NCBI RefSeq assembly: GCF_001753675.2
Contig: NZ_MJUW02000019.1
Location: 36,666 to 90,587 of the forward strand
Direction: 5' to 3'
Length of the DNA stretch: 53,922 nt
Source of the DNA: Candidatus Brocadia sapporoensis
GTDB lineage: Bacteria > Planctomycetota > Brocadiia > Brocadiales > Brocadiaceae
Shown one piece after another: positions 40,524-49,946 of this stretch. Position 1 is the stretch's first letter; every line of letters starts with the position of its first letter. A program made the translations under genes and the position numbers. The notes below the pieces were generated by a model. That model was given only the letters and a program-made list of their open reading frames with translations. It did not search any database and was not told the origin of the DNA.

Positions 40524-40944
40524 AGTATATATTTGATTTTTTTAACGTGAAATCCCATTTATGAATGGCCATGCACGGGGATGTCTTGCAATCAAGTTGA
40601 ATAAGTTGTAAATCAATAAAAGTATGGTATTATGATAATAGTCGAAATATTCCAACTAAAAACGGAGTGGGGTCATTCTTCGAAACACTTGGTTCTTATC
40701 CACTATATTTTGCAGATGAAAGAAAAATTGCGATTGTTATTACAGTGAATAAAGCTGTTACGGTACGTAATATACACAAGGCAAAATTTCTGGGTAAAGA
40801 AACAGAAATAATCGGAGAGGCCATAAAGAAAATAAAAGGTAAGGTGTGTCAAAGCCATAATCGGGTGGATGGGGCATATCATTATTATGCCTATCAATGA
40901 CCAACATCCGAAAATTTTTAAATCCCATCTTGAAAGGAGCGGCA
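40524..40944. other. Mostly non-coding stretch before the DUF2024 gene
   Basis: Apart from one possible small gene (next entry), no structure was recognised. The AAAGGAG ribosome binding site of the DUF2024 gene lies at the right edge. Confidence 0.35.
40667..40900 (+). CDS. Possible small basic protein, unrecognised
   Basis: A 77-codon frame from a GTG reads LGSYPLYFADERKIAIVITV, then RNIHKAKFLGKETEIIGEAI. It has a protein-like composition with a basic C-terminal helix. There is no strong ribosome binding site and no family match. It could be a small gene or a remnant. Confidence 0.35.
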   Translation: MGSFFETLGSYPLYFADERKIAIVITVNKAVTVRNIHKAKFLGKETEIIGEAIKKIKGKVCQSHNRVDGAYHYYAYQ

Positions 40945-41205
40945 ATGAAAGTGTCTGTTTATGATACGCACGTTGTAAAGAAAAATGGCATGAAGATGCA
41001 TTTTGATATTATTGTACCGGAAGACCAATCTCATGAAAAGGCTATTCAATACGGTCTCGAATACCTAAAAAGTGTGGGACAAGAGGGGCAACCGCTCACA
41101 ACAAAAGAATGTCGCTTCTGTCACATGGAAGAGGCGCCAAAAAATGTTGAAAAAGCCATTACAGAAAAAGGTTACTTCATCTATGAAATGGAAGGGTGCA
41201 ATTGA
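40945..41205 (+). CDS. DUF2024 family protein
   Basis: The product is 86 aa from the ATG at 40945, preceded by AAAGGAG; an in-frame start at 40897 is less likely. MKVSVYDTHVVKKNGMKMHF, then DIIVPEDQSHEKAIQYGLEY, matches the DUF2024 pattern, including the CRFCHMEEAP segment and the C-terminal GYFIYEMEGC. The function of the family is unknown; the Cys-x-x-Cys-His may bind metal. It precedes an aldo/keto reductase by 34 nt. Confidence 0.85.
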   Translation: MKVSVYDTHVVKKNGMKMHFDIIVPEDQSHEKAIQYGLEYLKSVGQEGQPLTTKECRFCHMEEAPKNVEKAITEKGYFIYEMEGCN

Positions 41206-41239: not shown

Positions 41240-42094
41240 ATGGAATTCAAAAATCTGACAGATACAATTGCAGTACCTGTTATAGGCCTTGGAACATGGA
41301 CTATTGGCGGAGGAGATTTGGCAGACACGACACATGACAACGAAGACGTTTCTGCTATTGAAACGGCAATCAAACTTGGCATAACACATATTGACACTGC
41401 TGAAGCATATGCCCAGGGTCATACAGAAGAATTGATTGGGCGAGCAATCAGGGGTTATGACAGGAAGAGTCTGTTTATCACTTCGAAGGTTTCGCCGGAA
41501 CATTTAGGCTACGACAATTTAATTGCTTCAGCGAAGGGAAGCCTGCAGAGGCTACATACGGATTATATTGATTTATATCTGATTCATGCGCCAAACCCGG
41601 ACATCCCAATGCAGGAAACCATGAAGGCAATGGATTTTTTGATAGAGCAAAAACTGATTAGATGTATGGGGGTAAGTAATTTTGCGGTTGAGCAAATAAA
41701 AGAAGCGCAGAAATATACGAAAAACAAAATTGCCGCAAATCAAATTCAATATAATCTGCTTGTAAGAAACAAGGGTAGAGTAACGAATGATATGGAATCA
41801 AAAATAATTCCTTATTGTCAGGAAAACAATATTCTCATTATTGCCTGGAGACCTCTTGCAAAGGGCGAACTCGCAAAACCCGGGTTTAAAATTGTAGATG
41901 ACCTTGCAAAAAATTACAACAAGTCGCAGTCTCAAATTGCGATAAATTGGTTAATTTCTAAAAAGGGAATTGTTGTCATAACGAAATCAACAAAGATTGA
42001 ACACCTTAAACAAAATTTAGGCGCCATCGGCTGGAGATTAAGACAGGAAGATATTGACAGACTAAACAATGAATTTGTTGATTCTGGGACGTAA
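41240..42094 (+). CDS. Aldo/keto reductase
   Basis: The product is 284 aa. The TIM-barrel catalytic residues are visible in HIDTAEAY (Asp, Tyr), FITSKV (Lys) and LYLIHAP (His). The NADPH-binding part includes MGVSNF and VVITKSTKIEHLKQNLGA. It reduces aldehydes or ketones with NADPH; the substrate is not predictable. It may be co-transcribed with the DUF2024 gene, which ends 34 nt upstream. Confidence 0.9.
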   Translation: MEFKNLTDTIAVPVIGLGTWTIGGGDLADTTHDNEDVSAIETAIKLGITHIDTAEAYAQGHTEELIGRAIRGYDRKSLFITSKVSPEHLGYDNLIASAKGSLQRLHTDYIDLYLIHAPNPDIPMQETMKAMDFLIEQKLIRCMGVSNFAVEQIKEAQKYTKNKIAANQIQYNLLVRNKGRVTNDMESKIIPYCQENNILIIAWRPLAKGELAKPGFKIVDDLAKNYNKSQSQIAINWLISKKGIVVITKSTKIEHLKQNLGAIGWRLRQEDIDRLNNEFVDSGT

Positions 42095-42385
42095 ACGATT
42101 TGTAATTTTGGTAACATTTTAGATTTTTAAAAAAATTCCCGTAATGTTGTGATTGTCATACACGGCAATGGCAATTCATAAAAATTGCCACTGCAGATTG
42201 CACAAAAGCATTTCCAGAAAAGCTAAAGCAATGTCAATTTTGATTGTTTTCCGAAAGAAGAATAAAAGAATTTAGACAAGGCTCGGTGAAATCTTGAAAA
42301 CAGGGAACGGTTAAATGATTATTATTGTTCTAAAATAGAGCTAGGTTTTTTATTATGTGAATTGAAAGGAGGTTTTCAATTTACC

Positions 42386-42730
42386 ATGTTTAAAATAAAA
42401 CGTATTTACGAAAAACCAGATGAAGACGACGGGCTAAGAGTGCTGATTGATCATCTATGGCCGCGTGGCCTTAAAAAAGAAGATGCCAAAATCGACCACT
42501 GGATGAAAGAAATAGCACCCAGTGATAATCTCCGCAAATGGTTTGGCCATAAAGAAGAGCACTGGCAGGAGTTTAAAAGTCGTTATAAGAAAGAGTTGAA
42601 AGATAAAAACGAACTTTTGAAACAATTGATAGATTTAGGGAAAAACAGAAAGGTTACTTTGTTGTATGCTGCAAAAGATGAAGAAAGAAACAATGCACAA
42701 GTGCTTTTAGAGATATTAAAAAAGAAGTGA
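42386..42730 (+). CDS. DUF488 family protein
   Basis: The product is 114 aa from the ATG at 42386; AAAGGAGG lies about 14 nt upstream, rather far. The sequence is a classical DUF488 protein: MFKIKRIYEKPDEDDGLRVL, then DHLWPRGLKKEDAKIDHWMK, then EIAPSDNLRKWFGH and VTLLYAAKDEERNNA. Function is unknown; the family has conserved tryptophan, arginine and histidine residues suggestive of an enzyme or ligand-binding site. The HAO-like gene starts about 100 nt later. Confidence 0.88.
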   Translation: MFKIKRIYEKPDEDDGLRVLIDHLWPRGLKKEDAKIDHWMKEIAPSDNLRKWFGHKEEHWQEFKSRYKKELKDKNELLKQLIDLGKNRKVTLLYAAKDEERNNAQVLLEILKKK

Positions 42731-42831
42731 TTTGGGATTATCCATATCTAAAGAAAATTGGTTTTTAATAATTTTACTCTTTTTAGCAAATCTTTTGAAA
42801 AATGGCTCACAGGGATGGGAGAATTAAGCGT

Positions 42832-44490
42832 ATGTGCAACAAAACAAACTCGCTAAAGATTTATCGGCTGTTTTTATTCCTGGGACTGTTAGTTTTAGGC
42901 GACATATGCGCGAAAGCTAGTGGATTCTACAAAGAGGGACATGTATTGGCTGAAAAGTTTTCCTATATACTGGAGAAAGCCATTGAAAAACAATACCCGC
43001 TCGATGTAAGACCAAGCCCGATTGTGACGGCTGCGAATAAAATGTGTGTAGAATGCCATGAGACCCTGGCGCCCGCACTGGTAATGGAATGGAAGCAATC
43101 GTCTCATGCCCAAAAAGGGGTGGGATGCGTTGATTGTCACAAGGCCAACGCTGGAGAAATAGATGCCTGGCAGCATATGGGAGCCCTGATTTCGACATTG
43201 GTTACACCAAAAGACTGCTCAAGTTGTCACATGACTGAGTATAAAGAATTTTCAAGAAGTCATCATGCAAAAGCCGGCGAAATCCTTGATAGTCTTGACA
43301 ATATACTTGCCGATAAAGTTATTGGTCTCCCCGGTAATAATGCAGATAATGTTATCGGTTGTTTACAATGCCATGGAAGCATTATAAAATTTATGCGCGC
43401 TGATACGGGGCAAATATTGCGGGAAGAAGGGAAGCCAATAATTGACCCTAATACATGGCCAAACAGTGGAATAGGCCGGTTAAACCCTGATGGTTCAAAA
43501 GGTTCGTGTCATGCATGTCACTCGAGACATTCCTTTGAGGCAAAATTGTCCAGAGCGCCTGAAAATTGTGGTAAATGTCACATGGGGCCTGACCATCCTC
43601 AGATGGAGATTTATCGCGAATCCAAGCATGGGATTGCGTATACCGCCAATATTAACCGCATGGCGCTGGATAAAGAAGGTGAATGGGTGTTAGGAAGAGA
43701 TTACACTGCTGCTCCGACGTGTACTACTTGCCATATCAGCAGTTATATGACATCAGAAGGGCAACATACAGCAAACAATCATGATGTTGGAGAGCGAATT
43801 AGTTGGACATTACGACCCGTTGTCAGCACGAAGATAAATTTAGTGATATACGACGATGGTTTTAAGGAAGACTATCCTGAAGCAAGAAAATTGCCGGAGA
43901 TTGGTGAAGAAGTTCTGGTGACTGAAAAAATCGTGCAGGAGGAAAAGTTGGTCGACAAGGTCGTTTCAAAACGTGTTGCTAAAATTGTGACTTGGCAAGA
44001 ACGGCGTGAAAAAATGAAAGGGGTATGTAAAAATTGCCATAATCAAACTCACGTTAATAATTTTTATCAACAATATGACAACCTTGTAAAACTCTACGAC
44101 GAAAAGTTTGCAAAGCCTGCGCAGGCAATGATGAATTCGTTGGAAGAAGACGGAGTTGTTAATCCAAAGGCCCCATTTGAACAAGAAGTACAATGGGTTT
44201 TCTGGGAATTATGGCATCATGAAGGCAGAAGAGCGAGACACGGGGCAAGCATGATGGGTCCGGATTACACACACTGGCATGGCATGTATGAGGTAGCAAA
44301 GCACTATTATATGAAATTTTTGCCGGCGGTAATTACCGCCGCTGCAAAAAAGAATGATTTGTTGAAGGCAAAATACGAGCAAAAAATTGAGGAGTTGTTG
44401 AACCAGAAAGAACATTTGTGGATGAAAGGGCTTTCTGAAGAAGAAATCAATGCCTTAACGTCTACATATAAATACCGCTATCATGAATAG
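42832..44490 (+). CDS. Octahaem hydroxylamine oxidoreductase-like cytochrome c
   Basis: The product is 552 aa from the ATG at 42832, which has GGGAG 10 nt upstream. A signal peptide (YRLFLFLGLLVLGDICAKA) targets it to the periplasm or anammoxosome. There are eight CxxCH motifs: CVECH, CVDCH, CSSCH, CLQCH, CHACH, CGKCH, CTTCH and CKNCH (from about residue 70 to 400). Length and spacing match the HAO family, in which one haem is P460 when a neighbour subunit's tyrosine crosslinks to it. MMGPDYTHWHGMYEVAKHYY holds candidate tyrosines, but which one, if any, applies cannot be decided by eye. In anammox bacteria such proteins oxidise hydroxylamine or NO, or act on nitrite. A 30-residue charged insert (EEVLVTEKIVQEEKLVDKVV) lies before the last haem. 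Confidence 0.9.
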   Translation: MCNKTNSLKIYRLFLFLGLLVLGDICAKASGFYKEGHVLAEKFSYILEKAIEKQYPLDVRPSPIVTAANKMCVECHETLAPALVMEWKQSSHAQKGVGCVDCHKANAGEIDAWQHMGALISTLVTPKDCSSCHMTEYKEFSRSHHAKAGEILDSLDNILADKVIGLPGNNADNVIGCLQCHGSIIKFMRADTGQILREEGKPIIDPNTWPNSGIGRLNPDGSKGSCHACHSRHSFEAKLSRAPENCGKCHMGPDHPQMEIYRESKHGIAYTANINRMALDKEGEWVLGRDYTAAPTCTTCHISSYMTSEGQHTANNHDVGERISWTLRPVVSTKINLVIYDDGFKEDYPEARKLPEIGEEVLVTEKIVQEEKLVDKVVSKRVAKIVTWQERREKMKGVCKNCHNQTHVNNFYQQYDNLVKLYDEKFAKPAQAMMNSLEEDGVVNPKAPFEQEVQWVFWELWHHEGRRARHGASMMGPDYTHWHGMYEVAKHYYMKFLPAVITAAAKKNDLLKAKYEQKIEELLNQKEHLWMKGLSEEEINALTSTYKYRYHE

Positions 44491-44552
44491 ACAGATTGTC
44501 GCTACCGTTGAAGAAAGAATTCACAAATGAATTTGGAGGCATTGAGAAATAT

Positions 44553-44783
44553 ATGAGCTGGACGTGTCCCTATCAGATAGATAATGAATGTATCAGGTTG
44601 AGGAAGTTGTGCCAACCTTTGCAGAAGGGTTGTGTGGTGGATGAAAAAGTTACTTTTATTGATACGCAGTTGGATTTCCAAAATAAAAAGAATTTGAGAA
44701 GGGAGGATGATCGGAATGGTAAAATTAGATCCAATCGCCGAATTCAGGGAAGATCACAGGAAAGTCAGGGACGGATTGCTTGA
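44553..44783 (+). CDS. Small Cys-rich protein beside the HAO-like gene
   Basis: The product is 76 aa from the ATG at 44553, after a GGAGG. The N-terminal half, MSWTCPYQIDNECIRLRKLC, then QPLQKGCVVDEKVTFID, has four cysteines in a spacing that looks like a metal or haem-associated mini-domain. The C-terminal part overlaps the next gene by 68 bp in another frame and is basic, so it may be non-essential. No family name is assigned. Confidence 0.6.
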   Translation: MSWTCPYQIDNECIRLRKLCQPLQKGCVVDEKVTFIDTQLDFQNKKNLRREDDRNGKIRSNRRIQGRSQESQGRIA

Positions 44784-45198
44784 ATTAATGGGGGCATTAC
44801 AATCAAAAGATGTTGTTAAGGCAAGAAAAATACTTGATACGATAAATGTGCTTGTCGGTCCACATTTCAGATACGAAGAAGAGGTGCTTTATCCAACATT
44901 GCGGGTATTTTTAGGTGAATATGTCGATCAATTACTCACAGAGCACGATGGCGTAATAGCCACTGCACGTTCTTGTGCTGAGTTGTTAAAGAAAGATTGT
45001 CTGACGGATGAAGAGGCAAAGCTGGCTGTTTCTGCGGCAAGAGCGCTGCTGATTCATGTTTCAAACTGCGACGGTCTGTCAATACTTTCCGAAAGATTGA
45101 GCAAAAATGAAGTAGATGCTTTAAGCGAGAAACTTGCCACCGCAAGAAAGGCGGGCGTATCCTTGTTAGATTGGGCAGAAACTATAAGGAAAAAATAG
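44716..45198 (+). CDS. Hemerythrin HHE-domain protein
   Basis: The product is 160 aa from the ATG at 44716, which follows GGGAGG; an in-frame ATG at 44707 abuts that site. Putative iron ligands are the histidine in REDHRKV, H and E in GPHFRYEEEVLYP, H in LLTEHDGVIA and H/D in LIHVSNCDGL. Hemerythrins bind O2, NO or iron with a diiron site. Next to an HAO-like cytochrome, a role in NO or O2 sensing or protection is plausible but inferred. The DsrE gene follows at once. Confidence 0.85.
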   Translation: MVKLDPIAEFREDHRKVRDGLLELMGALQSKDVVKARKILDTINVLVGPHFRYEEEVLYPTLRVFLGEYVDQLLTEHDGVIATARSCAELLKKDCLTDEEAKLAVSAARALLIHVSNCDGLSILSERLSKNEVDALSEKLATARKAGVSLLDWAETIRKK

Positions 45199-45200
45199 AA

Positions 45201-45614
45201 GTGGAAACTGACACGAAGGGTTTGTCTATAATTTTTCATAGCGGTTCTTATGACCGCGTCTTTCACGGTTTTTCTCTTGTACTGGTAGCATTGGCTTTGG
45301 GCAGAGATACAAAATGTTTCTTTACGTATTGGTCGTTGCCATATTTGATAAAAGGAAAATCTGAATTCCAGCTTGATGTAGAGGGTCAGTCTCATAAGAA
45401 ACTTCTGGAAGATCATATGAAAAAAGGACACATGCAGGAAATATCAAAACTCCTATTGGAAGCAAAAACGCTGGGGGCAAAGTTTTATGTTTGTACCAAT
45501 TCTATGGGCTTGCTAAATATAGCCCGGGACGAACTTGTAAATGAGGTTGATAAGAGTATGGGACTAACCACATTTCTTGTGGAAGCTAGCCAGGACCAAC
45601 TTCTGTTTATTTAA
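45201..45614 (+). CDS. DsrE/DsrF-like sulfur-relay family protein
   Basis: The product is 137 aa from a GTG at 45201, with AAGGA 9 nt upstream, directly after the hemerythrin stop. LSIIFHSGSYDRVFHGFSLV, ALALGRDTKCFFTYW, AKTLGAKFYVCTNSMG and LTTFLVEASQDQLLFI follow the DsrE alpha/beta pattern. The cysteine in FYVCTNS may be a persulfide carrier. DsrE-type proteins shuttle sulfur or act in thiol redox; this copy probably belongs to the hemerythrin transcript. Confidence 0.8.
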   Translation: METDTKGLSIIFHSGSYDRVFHGFSLVLVALALGRDTKCFFTYWSLPYLIKGKSEFQLDVEGQSHKKLLEDHMKKGHMQEISKLLLEAKTLGAKFYVCTNSMGLLNIARDELVNEVDKSMGLTTFLVEASQDQLLFI

Positions 45615-45704: not shown

Positions 45705-46163
45705 ATGAAAGATCGAATTAAAATTAGCGATAAGGTTATATCATCGAGTCAGCCATCCGAAGAAGAAATAAAAAAACTACCGCAACAGGGATTTAAGTCG
45801 GTGGTTAATCTCCGCGCTACCGGGGAAGATGAACAGCCTCTTTCTCCGAAAGACGAGGGAGATTTAGTTCAAAAACTGGGAATGAAATACCTGCATATTC
45901 CGGTGTCGATGAAAGAAGGAATTAAGCCGGAACTGGTCGATCAATTTCGTAGAGAAATAGAGCTTCTCCCGGCGCCGGTATTAGTTCATTGCCATACGGG
46001 AAAACGTGCTGGGGCTTTTACGATGATGTATTCGGCGTTAAAAGAGGAACTTACGGGTGAGGAGGCGCTACAGAAGGCCATGTCGATAGGTTTTTCGTGT
46101 GATGTGCCGCAGTTAAAAGCATTCTTTATAAACTACATTGACCTGCATAAGAAAGTTGATTAG
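45705..46163 (+). CDS. DUF442 / beta-lactamase-hydrolase-like phosphatase-fold protein
   Basis: The product is 152 aa from the ATG at 45705, after a GGAGG. ISDKVISSSQPSEEEIKKLP and GFKSVVNLRATGED are typical of the family. The catalytic loop LVHCHTGKRAGAFT has the cysteine of protein-tyrosine-phosphatase folds with CxxxxR spacing. Some relatives are fused to persulfide dioxygenase or sulfur-relay proteins, so the neighbouring DsrE gene is suggestive. The reaction is unproven. Confidence 0.82.
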   Translation: MKDRIKISDKVISSSQPSEEEIKKLPQQGFKSVVNLRATGEDEQPLSPKDEGDLVQKLGMKYLHIPVSMKEGIKPELVDQFRREIELLPAPVLVHCHTGKRAGAFTMMYSALKEELTGEEALQKAMSIGFSCDVPQLKAFFINYIDLHKKVD

Positions 46164-46555: not shown

Positions 46556-48427
46556 ATGTTGACATATATCTGGACAAAAACAGGGCTATTTTCTTTCGGT
46601 AAGATTATACGCTGGCTTAATCGTCAACAATTCTCCGAATCGGTTGCTCTTGCTGTAATAGCAATACTTGTTGGCCTGGTGACCGGTATAGGAGTATGGC
46701 TCTTCAAGCAACTGTTTAATGCGATATATCAATACGCATTCGGGGGGATAGATACGCCTTTGGGTCTTTTGCATAAGAAAGAAGTTGCTCTTCGGTTTTT
46801 TCAGGATATGGCAAATTGGGCCGGATTTGATAGGATTGGAACCGTCCTGGGTTATATAGGAAATTGGATGATCTTCTTTATACCCGTCCTTGGCGGTCTC
46901 GCTGTTGGACTGATTTCTCATTTTTTTATCGGTAAGGAACGATATGTGGGCATAGCGGGTATTATGGAATCTGTAGCATTGGGAGGCGGACGACTGCCGT
47001 ATCGAAAAATACCAACCAAAACAGTTGCCGCTGCATTATCCCTCGGTTCTGGCGCTTCAGTGGGATCTGCAGACCCATCCATTCAGATTGGTGCATACTT
47101 AGGATCTATGTTTGGCCAGATCTTGCGACTTTCTGATGAACGGATTCGTGCACTCGTTGCATCGGGCGCTGCTGGTGGGGTTGCCGCGGCATTCAATGCG
47201 CCCATTGCCGGCATATTTTTTGCCTTAGAAATCATTATAGGCGAATTAAGTGTAAACGCCTTCGGGGTAGTAACACTGGCATCTGTGATTTCATCTGTGT
47301 TTACTCAGGCTGTGTCAGGGCGTCAACCTGCATTTCACATCCCTGCATATGCTTTTAACTCCGCATGGGAACTGCCGCTCTATTTTGGGTTAGGTGTGCT
47401 GTCCGGACTCAGTGCAGCATTCTATATTCGTTTGCATCATTTTACGCGCGGTATTTTTGATAAATGGAATGCGCCACGCTGGCTCAAGCCAGCAGTTGCA
47501 GGTATATCCGTAGGCCTTGTTGGAATGTATCTGCCGCAGATATTTGGTGCAGGTTATGCAACCATTGAAAACATTTTAAACGGCAAACCGCTAACGGTAC
47601 CCCTCCTACTTTCGCTGGCATTATCCAGGCTGGTATTAACGCCGATTTGTATTAGCGGCGGTTTTCACGGTGGAGTATTTGCTCCTTCCCTTTTTGCCGG
47701 CGCTACGCTTGGAGGCGCTTACGGACTGATTGTACAACAGTTTTTCCCTTCTCTTAACATTTCGCCGCCTGCCTTTGCAATGGTAGGGATGGCTGCAGTT
47801 TTTGCAGGCACAATACATGCGCCAATTACCTCGTTTATTCTGCTCTTTGAAATGACCAACGATTACCGGATTATTCTGCCGCTGATAGCTGCCGTAAACG
47901 TGAGTCTGTTTATTTCATGGCATTTACAACACGATTCAGTATATACGTTGGGACTGACTCGTAAAGGTATACGCCTGCAGCGGGGACGCGATGTTGACGT
48001 GTTGGAAACTATTACCATTGAGAAGGTCATGAAGACGGAGATCGATACTTTACGAGAATCCGATTCGTTAACGGTGGCAATTGATTTGCTCGTGCGGAAA
48101 AGGTATCACGGTTTGCCAGTGCTTGACGATGCTGGTGAATTGACTGGTATTATCACGGTGCAAGATATTGATCGCGTACAAGGCGATGATAATGGTTTGA
48201 TACGTACCGTTGGTGAAGTTTGTACGCGCGAGTTGCTTTTGGCATATCCCGACGAAACGATTGGCACGGCATTGCAGCGTATCGGGATGAGAAACGTAAG
48301 CCAGTTACCGGTCGTTGCCCGTGACAATTCGCGTCGTTTAGTAGGATTACTGTGTAATTCTGATATTGCGTGCGCTTACGATCTGGCAGTAACCCGCCGT
48401 GCGGCAATCCGGCATCGTGCTCATTAA
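46556..48427 (+). CDS. ClC-family chloride channel/transporter with CBS domains
   Basis: The product is 623 aa. The N-terminal 440 residues are a multi-helix ClC core with GSGASVGSADPSIQIGAYLG and GGFHGGVFAPSLFAGATLGG, the second being the GxFxP chloride-binding motif. In the first, the usual GxEGP/GPEDP motif is replaced by G170-S-A-D-P174, so the external gating glutamate is alanine (A172). Two CBS domains follow (TIEKVMKTEIDTLRESDSL, then GEVCTRELLLAYPDETIG), which often bind nucleotides. Loss of the glutamate usually abolishes proton coupling, so a passive anion channel is likely. It is a single gene ahead of the rubredoxin cluster. Confidence 0.9.
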   Translation: MLTYIWTKTGLFSFGKIIRWLNRQQFSESVALAVIAILVGLVTGIGVWLFKQLFNAIYQYAFGGIDTPLGLLHKKEVALRFFQDMANWAGFDRIGTVLGYIGNWMIFFIPVLGGLAVGLISHFFIGKERYVGIAGIMESVALGGGRLPYRKIPTKTVAAALSLGSGASVGSADPSIQIGAYLGSMFGQILRLSDERIRALVASGAAGGVAAAFNAPIAGIFFALEIIIGELSVNAFGVVTLASVISSVFTQAVSGRQPAFHIPAYAFNSAWELPLYFGLGVLSGLSAAFYIRLHHFTRGIFDKWNAPRWLKPAVAGISVGLVGMYLPQIFGAGYATIENILNGKPLTVPLLLSLALSRLVLTPICISGGFHGGVFAPSLFAGATLGGAYGLIVQQFFPSLNISPPAFAMVGMAAVFAGTIHAPITSFILLFEMTNDYRIILPLIAAVNVSLFISWHLQHDSVYTLGLTRKGIRLQRGRDVDVLETITIEKVMKTEIDTLRESDSLTVAIDLLVRKRYHGLPVLDDAGELTGIITVQDIDRVQGDDNGLIRTVGEVCTRELLLAYPDETIGTALQRIGMRNVSQLPVVARDNSRRLVGLLCNSDIACAYDLAVTRRAAIRHRAH

Positions 48428-48491: not shown

Positions 48492-48650
48492 ATGGATAGA
48501 TACAAATGCATGATCTGTGGATATATCTACGACCCAAAATTTGGTGATCCTGACAATGGAATTAGTCCTGGCACCAGTTTTCAGAATCTGCCCGATACTT
48601 GGGTCTGTCCTCAATGTGGTGCTCCAAAAGAACAATTTGAACAAATTTGA
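48492..48650 (+). CDS. Rubredoxin (first copy)
   Basis: The product is 52 aa. CMICGYIYD and CPQCGAP supply the four iron ligands, and [11 protein letters not shown] and LPDTWVCP are canonical. AAGGAG lies 8 nt before the ATG. It transfers single electrons in the cytoplasm. It stands 63 nt before an NDH-2-like flavoprotein, with a second rubredoxin after that gene, so the flavoprotein may be its reductase. Confidence 0.95.
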
Positions 48651-48713: not shown

Positions 48714-49946
48714 ATGGAAGATTCTAAAGCATCAGTCATGGAAGCCAAAAAAAATATTGTTGTGATGGGAGCCGGTTACGGGGGAATTACGGCTGCGCTG
48801 AGGTTGGCAAGGTTATTCCGTCTGCATCCTGAATATCAGATTCATCTAATTGATAGAAATCCTTACCATACGCTCAAGACACAATTGCATGAGGCCGCTG
48901 TCCGTAAGACAGAGATATCAATTCCGATTGATCGCATTATACAAAGACAAAATATCATTTTTCATCTTGGAGAAGCAACCCGGATTGATTCCATTGGGCA
49001 TATCGTTCGCATGGGAAATCGGTCTTTATCATTTAATTATCTGGTAATAGCGCTCGGAAGTCAGGCAAATTTTTACAATATCCCTGGATTGCAGGAAAGC
49101 TCTTTCCCGCTTCAGACGTTGAGAGATGCTCAACAAATCTATGACTCTATTAGTCAACTCTGTGCTTATGCAGCAACAGAACCAAATGAGGAGCGGCGAA
49201 GAGACACACTTCGGTTTGTCATCGGCGGAGGTGGTTTGTCAGGGGTAGAATTCGCTGCCGAACTTGCTGACCACGTTGCTCAGTGTACACGTAATTATCA
49301 GGTGAATCCTCATGAGGTTGAAATCATTATCATTGAATCTGGCTCCCGCGTAGTGCCTAAAATGGATGAATCCTTTGCAATGCGGATTCACAAAAAACTC
49401 CTGGAAAGAGGTATAAAAATTATAACAGGTACAAAAATTGATAGTCGAACTCCGGACACGGTTGTGCTTTCCTCGGGTGAAGTGCTGAGAACCAGGACCG
49501 TGATCTGGACGGGAGGCATTCGGATCCAGGAACTCGTGAAGGAAAGTGGAATGAAAACTGGGCAATTAGGACGCATTATTGTTGATGAGTTTCTTCAAGT
49601 AGAAGGGAATCTTTTTGTTTATGCCATTGGTGACAATGCCCTTGCGCTGAACCCTTATACAAAAGAGCCGGTTCCAGCCGCTGCCCAATTTGCATTACAG
49701 CAAGGGCGATTGGTAGCAAACAATATCTACGCAACTATTTTTGGGGGCGTGAGAAGGCCGTATCGCCCGAAGGTCTTGGGAGAGGTTGTCAGTCTCGGAA
49801 GGCATCTTGCTATTGGATGGCTGGCGCTTCCGCTCTCGAAAAAAATTACCTTTGTTGGTTTTTTAGGGAGTCTTCTGAAAACAGCCATTCAGGAAAGACA
49901 CATCTTTCTTTTAAGAAAAGAGAGTAGGAAGTGGATAACTTATTAG
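48714..49946 (+). CDS. NDH-2-like FAD-dependent NAD(P)H oxidoreductase
   Basis: The product is 410 aa from the ATG at 48714, or 402 aa from an ATG at 48738. Two nucleotide-binding folds are seen: NIVVMGAGYGGITAALRLAR for FAD and VIGGGGLSGVEFAAELADH for NAD(P)H. TRTVIWTGGIR and VYAIGDNAL are also conserved. It has the length and motifs of type II NADH dehydrogenase. The usual route is NADH to quinone, but location between two rubredoxin genes suggests a rubredoxin reductase or a shared redox chain. This is inference. Confidence 0.88.
   Translation: MEDSKASVMEAKKNIVVMGAGYGGITAALRLARLFRLHPEYQIHLIDRNPYHTLKTQLHEAAVRKTEISIPIDRIIQRQNIIFHLGEATRIDSIGHIVRMGNRSLSFNYLVIALGSQANFYNIPGLQESSFPLQTLRDAQQIYDSISQLCAYAATEPNEERRRDTLRFVIGGGGLSGVEFAAELADHVAQCTRNYQVNPHEVEIIIIESGSRVVPKMDESFAMRIHKKLLERGIKIITGTKIDSRTPDTVVLSSGEVLRTRTVIWTGGIRIQELVKESGMKTGQLGRIIVDEFLQVEGNLFVYAIGDNALALNPYTKEPVPAAAQFALQQGRLVANNIYATIFGGVRRPYRPKVLGEVVSLGRHLAIGWLALPLSKKITFVGFLGSLLKTAIQERHIFLLRKESRKWITY

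Follow-up and report, generated by a model that had tools for sequence, protein, structure and literature searches.

Within a 53,922-nucleotide stretch of Candidatus Brocadia sapporoensis (the window; contig NZ_MJUW02000019.1, positions 36,666 to 90,587), the gene at 42832..44490 encodes an octahaem cytochrome c (OCC) of the epsilonHao type of the HAO family; it and all other features given below lie on the forward strand. We put at roughly 60% the probability that the product is an exported reductase of nitrite and/or hydroxylamine, perhaps also of NO, which would work probably towards ammonium with electrons from the quinol pool. The protein has no Tyr at the cross-link site of the oxidative enzymes, its homologues elsewhere have conserved operon partners, and the window gene is an orphan tied to a gene island whose order changes between genomes. 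From sequence comparison we infer the reaction, its product and the electron donor, as well as the lack of coupling to the hemerythrin and DsrE-like genes that follow OCC. A preliminary description of the locus had suggested a nitrogen or NO/thiol function for this gene group. The nitrogen role is well supported, as that of an epsilonHao-type reductase and not of an oxidative HAO; the proposed coupling with hemerythrin and DsrE lacks such support.

From the ATG at 42832 OCC comprises 552 amino acids, and from a longer start at 42802 it comprises 562; the former is preferred because homology starts at RIKxMCNKTN. The N-terminus has a signal-peptide-like stretch (read from the sequence, no predictor run). 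The open reading frame (ORF) holds exactly eight CxxCH motifs and no CxxCK, which bears out the eight intact motifs reported at the outset: CVECH (43045..43059), CVDCH (43126..43140), CSSCH (43216..43230), CLQCH (43360..43374), CHACH (43507..43521), CGKCH (43567..43581), CTTCH (43720..43734) and CKNCH (44026..44040). By its position the fourth binds the catalytic haem, as haem 4 is the active site of HAO (PMC8840924, figure legend, in excerpt). These eight motifs, together with full-length relatives of 76-89% identity in several genomes, rule out a chance or artefactual ORF. A charged insert before the last haem had also been described as a special feature, and this we reject: the charged stretch (43828..43995), which lies between the last two haems, is of constant length across the clade, motif 8 starting 101-102 residues after the start of motif 7 in the window, in anammox relatives and in those from Latescibacterota, KSB1, Binatota, Verrucomicrobiota and Desulfobacterota. 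Other clades have shorter distances, of 45-72 or 81-87 residues. An AlphaFold2 model of OCC was unusable, with a mean predicted local distance difference test score (pLDDT) of 54, and was discarded.

The preliminary description had left the place of the cross-linking tyrosine to be found, and OCC has none. In both a MAFFT and an hhalign alignment against the HAO paralogues of the same genome, Trp492 occupies the site at which oxidative HAO and HDH carry their cross-linking Tyr. His491-Trp492 is encoded at 44272..44277, Met484 precedes Trp492 by eight residues, and both Trp492 and Met484 are invariant in 20 aligned sequences. Nitrosomonas HAO (NeHAO) has a Tyr at chain position 467, which we take to be its cross-linking residue. 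The Asp264-His265 pair of the OCC motif GPDHP aligns with HAO and is conserved. Octahaem nitrite and tetrathionate reductases (ONR/OTR) have CxxCK at the catalytic haem; OCC, in which all eight motifs end in His, is not one of them. Among structures in the PDB, the top phmmer match is the Ignicoccus octahaem cytochrome 4qo5 (E=2.2e-47, 165 bits), while the structures of HAO, HAOr and HDH score at most 65 bits; the NCBIfam equivalog for hydrazine dehydrogenase is missed by far (77.4 against a cut-off of 900 bits). Trp at the cross-link site and Met eight residues earlier are given as the mark of epsilonHao in an excerpt of PMC8940962. The text available from PMC12758564 names His as the key-site residue of reductive enzymes; as His491 adjoins Trp492, there is no Tyr at the key site under either reading.

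A tree of 95 OCC and HAO proteins was built with a quick method, after 25 of 120 distinct rows had been dropped (five as truncated or unrelated, 20 as redundant close relatives). It places the window OCC in an anammox subclade within a cosmopolitan group that includes Latescibacterota, KSB1, Binatota, Verrucomicrobiota, Elusimicrobiota and others, and six HAO/HDH-type paralogues of the same genome fall away from it. Anammox proteins like the Ignicoccus cytochrome IhOCC (loci L182-L184, L188 and L197-L199; L numbers denote loci and G numbers genomes, the window lying in G000:C120) form a separate clade with a different tail motif, and their HAO5A label is taken from partial text of PMC12758564 and this tail motif. 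As OCC does not cluster with these HAO5A-like proteins, an assignment to HAO5A was rejected, and by elimination it is probably HAO5B-like.

The genes next to OCC were compared in 80 GTDB loci, five from Brocadiaceae (L102, L103, L104, L115 and L125, of which L104 and L125 were assigned because they match G028 and G017) and 75 from elsewhere; partners were counted from unpruned ORFs and assigned to families by Pfam, an NrfD hit being required for the NrfD class. Outside Brocadiaceae a quinol-oxidising module adjoins OCC in 57 of the 75 loci: 31 have Rieske and cytochrome b, 24 a tetrahaem-FeS-NrfD module and two cytochrome b only; 17 have neither, and one is too short upstream. Flanking NapA/NapG/NapH-like genes occur at 8/31 Rieske/cytochrome b loci, 6/24 NrfD loci and 4/17 loci without a module, a NapA-like representative scoring 694 bits on the NapA model, below its cut-off of 904. 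A cluster of Nap, Rieske/cytochrome b and epsilonHao is published for Caldithrix abyssi (PMC5317091, in part). The Candidatus Anammoxibacter locus L158 carries Rieske/cytochrome b, as do L101 and the related genome L196. No linked quinol module was found in any of the 25 Brocadiaceae and family-f4 loci, window included (same-genome duplicates counted once; L190, which starts inside the gene, left out). The nearest relatives outside (L111-L114 and L116) are orphans as well, and the partner state requires only four changes on the OCC tree (73 rows). The window OCC is an orphan, a putative reductase whose dedicated electron-supply genes were lost in anammox bacteria. We keep the term epsilonHao-type as a statement of kind, because partner linkage is usual and not obligatory.

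The proposed mechanism is as follows. OCC would be exported to the anammoxosome or periplasm side, where its haem 4, free of a Tyr cross-link, would most likely reduce nitrite, hydroxylamine or both, and perhaps NO, with ammonium as the probable product. In other phyla quinol electrons would reach OCC through the co-encoded Rieske/cytochrome b or tetrahaem-FeS-NrfD module; since this module is unlinked in Brocadiaceae, they would have to come there from a shared Rieske/cytochrome b complex or from small cytochromes.

The genes downstream of OCC are closely packed on the same strand, as first described: a gap of 62 nt separates OCC from a mini-protein gene (44553..44783), which overlaps a hemerythrin HHE gene (Hr; 44716..45198) by about 68 nt, and 2 nt separate the latter from a DsrE-like (DrsE_2) gene (45201..45614). 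The mini-protein has a conserved N-terminal four-Cys motif, MSWxCPxQxxxxCxRLxxxCQPxQxGCV, and an unconserved C-terminal part in the overlap with the Hr gene; it has no Pfam or NCBIfam match up to E 0.1. A homologue in the planctomycete G195 (L098:8010-8483) stands in one frame with a 4Fe-4S ferredoxin, and this arrangement suggests that the mini family, which has no other annotation, is involved in redox or metal chemistry. The hemerythrin matches Pfam PF01814 (48.2 bits, cut-off 25.3), and its start Met (44716) is present in all 16 copies aligned. The DsrE-like protein matches PF13686 (60.8 bits, cut-off 25.0); its GTG start aligns with the ATG of relatives, two Cys are invariant (C49 and C108, alignment numbering), and it stays under the cut-off of the DsrE2 sulfur carrier equivalog NF047629 (30.1 against 210 bits). 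None of the three shows a signal peptide, again as read from the sequences without a predictor, and direct contact with OCC is unlikely because OCC has an export signal. Scans gave four terminator-like sites (3.5 expected), none of them between OCC and the mini-protein gene, and 18 promoter-like sites (11.5 expected, standard deviation 3.7), and were not used as evidence. In the closed genome G020 a decayed mini-Hr-DsrE block occurs twice (L064:14002-15021 and L096:7610-8629) with near-identical Hr and DsrE, which is a recent duplication.

These genes belong to a larger anammox gene island. Upstream of OCC lie genes for a DUF2024 protein (40897..41205), an aldo/keto reductase (AKR; 41240..42094) and a DUF488 protein (42362..42730), the last of which stands directly 5' of mini-Hr-DsrE in genomes without OCC in between. 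Downstream are a TIGR01244/Blh-like phosphatase-fold protein (45705..46163; 55.4 bits, below the TIGR01244 cut-off of 85.85), a putative ClC-type chloride channel with a CBS-like C-terminus (46556..48427) and a putative rubredoxin (48492..48650), both presumed from sequence features, and an FAD-dependent pyridine nucleotide-disulfide oxidoreductase (NDH-2-like; 48714..49946). The single CxxCH (CRFCH) of the DUF2024 protein, which has no signal peptide, probably binds no haem. Six compared loci encode a further hemerythrin (L093:7409-8134 and relatives), lipoprotein-like and weakly similar to the Fe-S repair protein RIC, mostly between DsrE and ClC, an interval that holds the TIGR01244-like gene in the window instead. 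One genome carries a second, heavily decayed island copy with DUF2024, AKR, DUF488, mini, Hr, DsrE and ClC (L193, in G004:C1) and also an intact-looking Hr-DsrE pair (L192).

The linkage of OCC to the island was followed in 18 loci of the window subclade (window, G007, G026, G020, G009, G055, G041, two of G046, G056, G002, G025, G018, G059, G008, G010, G057 and G006), scoring DUF2024, AKR, DUF488, mini, Hr, DsrE, ClC and the FAD oxidoreductase as markers in the fetched flanks. At least one marker flanks OCC in 16 of the 18, window included; G041 and one G046 locus have none. Among seven sister OCC paralogues (G028, G025, G018, G014, G023, G000 at C53 and G027), three of them on short contigs, no marker was found. 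Two loci were left out of this sister set: G058, truncated and of 66% identity, where the sole marker is a ClC-family protein at a distance of 7.1 kb, and G017 (L125), which has no marker and whose OCC gene stands at a contig start. The preliminary description had held that differing neighbourhoods of the paralogues in every genome, or separate transcripts, would speak against its idea. The OCC paralogue of the same genome does have other neighbours, which counts in part against that idea; in its favour, the subclade is reproducibly tied to the island. The order OCC-mini-Hr-DsrE occurs at only 4/18 loci, following DUF488 each time: the window, G007, G026 with a decayed mini-protein gene, and G006 with a frameshifted OCC at the contig start. 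Elsewhere the order is DUF488-OCC-ClC without mini-Hr-DsrE (G009, G002, G008), DUF488-mini-OCC (G020), mini-Hr-OCC (G018), ClC-OCC-oxidoreductase (G025) or oxidoreductase-OCC-Hr-DsrE (G056). DUF488-mini-Hr-DsrE stands without OCC in between in G005, G014, G003 and G004, and likewise in G010, where an OCC fragment lies more than 3 kb away. OCC is within 1 kb of mini or Hr at 7/18 loci, window included, and none of the 75 loci outside Brocadiaceae has Hr, DsrE or mini in its fetched flanks. Of 62 Brocadiales genomes, 14 have an Hr orthologue, 12 a DsrE orthologue (at least 70% identity) and 33 a mini gene. These arrangements argue against the coupling first suggested. Because OCC is without its usual electron-supply genes and sits in an often reshuffled stress-gene island, Hr and DsrE are probably its neighbours and not its partners; mini, Hr and DsrE would form a separate, closely packed cytoplasmic unit that need not share the OCC substrate. 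A literature search, whose coverage left out most subscription journals, found no paper on an octahaem-hemerythrin-DsrE cluster.

Three other explanations bear on this locus. The island could be a response to nitrosative or oxidative stress, a view close to the one first suggested for the locus. OCC would clear NO, hydroxylamine or nitrite outside the cytoplasm, and hemerythrin, DsrE, rubredoxin and the NDH-2-like protein would deal with O2, NO and damaged thiols within it, in parallel and co-regulated. The persistence of island genes around OCC through changes of order, when sister paralogues have none, and the RIC-like lipoprotein hemerythrin added in other genomes fit this idea, but OCC and mini-Hr-DsrE are each found without the other, OCC lies within 1 kb of mini or Hr at only 7/18 loci and the 75 loci outside Brocadiaceae show no such linkage, and we regard it as doubtful. 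Alternatively, OCC may be an accessory gene repeatedly moved or inserted at a genomic hot spot between anammox lineages, functionally unrelated to the island. G018 (family f1) and one of the G046 loci (family f4) share a 2.1-kb OCC block at 97% identity, and OCCs of these two families are intermingled in the tree. This suggests that the gene passed from one anammox family to another, unless one metagenome-assembled genome (MAG) is contaminated. Only remnants of OCC are left in G010 and G015, and single frameshifts, which could be assembly errors, interrupt it in G008 and G006. Passive hitch-hiking of this kind is possible though not likely, given that the island linkage outlasts rearrangements and that a block common to two MAGs could be a contaminant. 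An OCC-AKR block is 92-97% identical across genomes of two anammox families (L072 and L073). The third explanation, an oxidative paralogue whose oxidation of hydroxylamine or hydrazine would feed a thiol/NO pathway, draws on HAO/HDH homology and the conserved Asp-His pair; it is very improbable. The missing Tyr and the low HDH score rule against OCC as an oxidative HAO, HDH or HOX, and its relatives are encoded with quinol-oxidising modules, some near nap-like genes.

NrfA offers a further view of the product. PF02335 matches exceed the cut-off over a long stretch in most genomes of the window's genus and in others, and are absent or weak in, for example, G007, G020, G025, G028, G018 and G014. 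In Brocadiaceae (f1, 33 genomes) OCC and NrfA are negatively associated: an OCC with an unbroken reading frame, counting copies cut off by a contig end, is present in 9/12 NrfA-negative and 5/21 NrfA-positive genomes (Fisher p=0.009), absences being affected also by MAG incompleteness. With the frameshifted copies of G006 and G008 counted as present the latter figure becomes 7/21 (p=0.032), and with the partial G011 copy added p=0.010. Over all 55 genomes of the rpoB tree p=0.098, and without four f2/f3 genomes p=0.046; with phylogeny taken into account, 3-4 independent pairs remain on supported branches of this tree and the sign test is not significant. A speculative extension, which we consider rather unlikely, is that NrfA-lacking anammox bacteria, including the genus of G020, G025 and G028, reduce nitrite or hydroxylamine to ammonium with OCC, and that OCC decays where NrfHA was acquired. 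The idea of an ammonium-forming anammox HAO is not new: a 2013 paper proposed that Scalindua may form ammonium by means of an epsilonHao-like HAO (scal02288; PMC3655542, in excerpt). The NrfA of the window's own genome (L260:2530-3969, C80) has CxxCH and not CxxCK at its first haem motif and adjoins a tetrahaem NrfH-like protein.

Several observations weigh against our reading of OCC as an ammonium-forming reductase that is independent of its neighbours. The same genome carries NrfHA besides OCC, which would make ammonium formation by OCC redundant in it. Extracts of Kuenenia CSTR1 made NO and no ammonium from nitrite, according to the part of PMC11897245 available. OCC (E<=1e-70) is found in just 26 of the 62 Brocadiales genomes, is absent from many anammox genomes and is decaying in some. 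The link to island genes at 16 of 18 loci leaves room for a joint function. Campylobacterota contribute only two rows to the tree (L135 and L136, in the same large clade), and no named Campylobacter or Nautilia epsilonHao is among the rows.

Anammox genomes hold about ten HAO paralogues each, by the Kuenenia count, several of them without an assigned function (PMC12053348). Its place in the reductive, quinol-linked branch, its orphan state and its patchy retention mark OCC as a concrete candidate to reduce nitrite or hydroxylamine. If the extension to NrfA-lacking bacteria were true, OCC would be the enzyme behind the dissimilatory nitrate reduction to ammonium (DNRA) reported for nrfA-less anammox bacteria, working after the loss of its dedicated Rieske/cytochrome b partner. 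The locus is also a case against inferring partners from gene adjacency alone.

Among known systems, OCC resembles epsilonHao (HaoA) of Nautilia/Campylobacter and Caldithrix abyssi, with which it shares eight CxxCH motifs, the lack of a cross-link Tyr, Trp at this site and Met eight residues before; its homologues, too, are linked to Rieske/cytochrome b or NrfD modules, sometimes with nap-like genes. In contrast to them, the window gene is an orphan that lies in a stress island of anammox bacteria and has no quinol module linked to it. IhOCC of Ignicoccus hospitalis (PDB 4qo5), of the HAO5A type, is the closest solved structure and equally lacks the cross-link Tyr, but the HAO5A-like anammox proteins form their own clade with another tail motif. 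The anammox proteins HAOr (kustc0458, PDB 6h5l) and kuste4574, the latter part of a Rieske/cytochrome b complex (PMC12954380, in part), are likewise HAO-like and reductive; they belong to another clade of the family, and the genome of the window has separate HAOr-like paralogues (L004 and L005). Oxidative HAO, HOX and HDH share the family and the eight haems, and OCC differs from them by the missing cross-link Tyr and by its 77 bits against the HDH cut-off of 900. Scalindua scal02288, the putative ammonium-forming anammox HAO paralogue of the 2013 proposal, resembles OCC in the function proposed for it.

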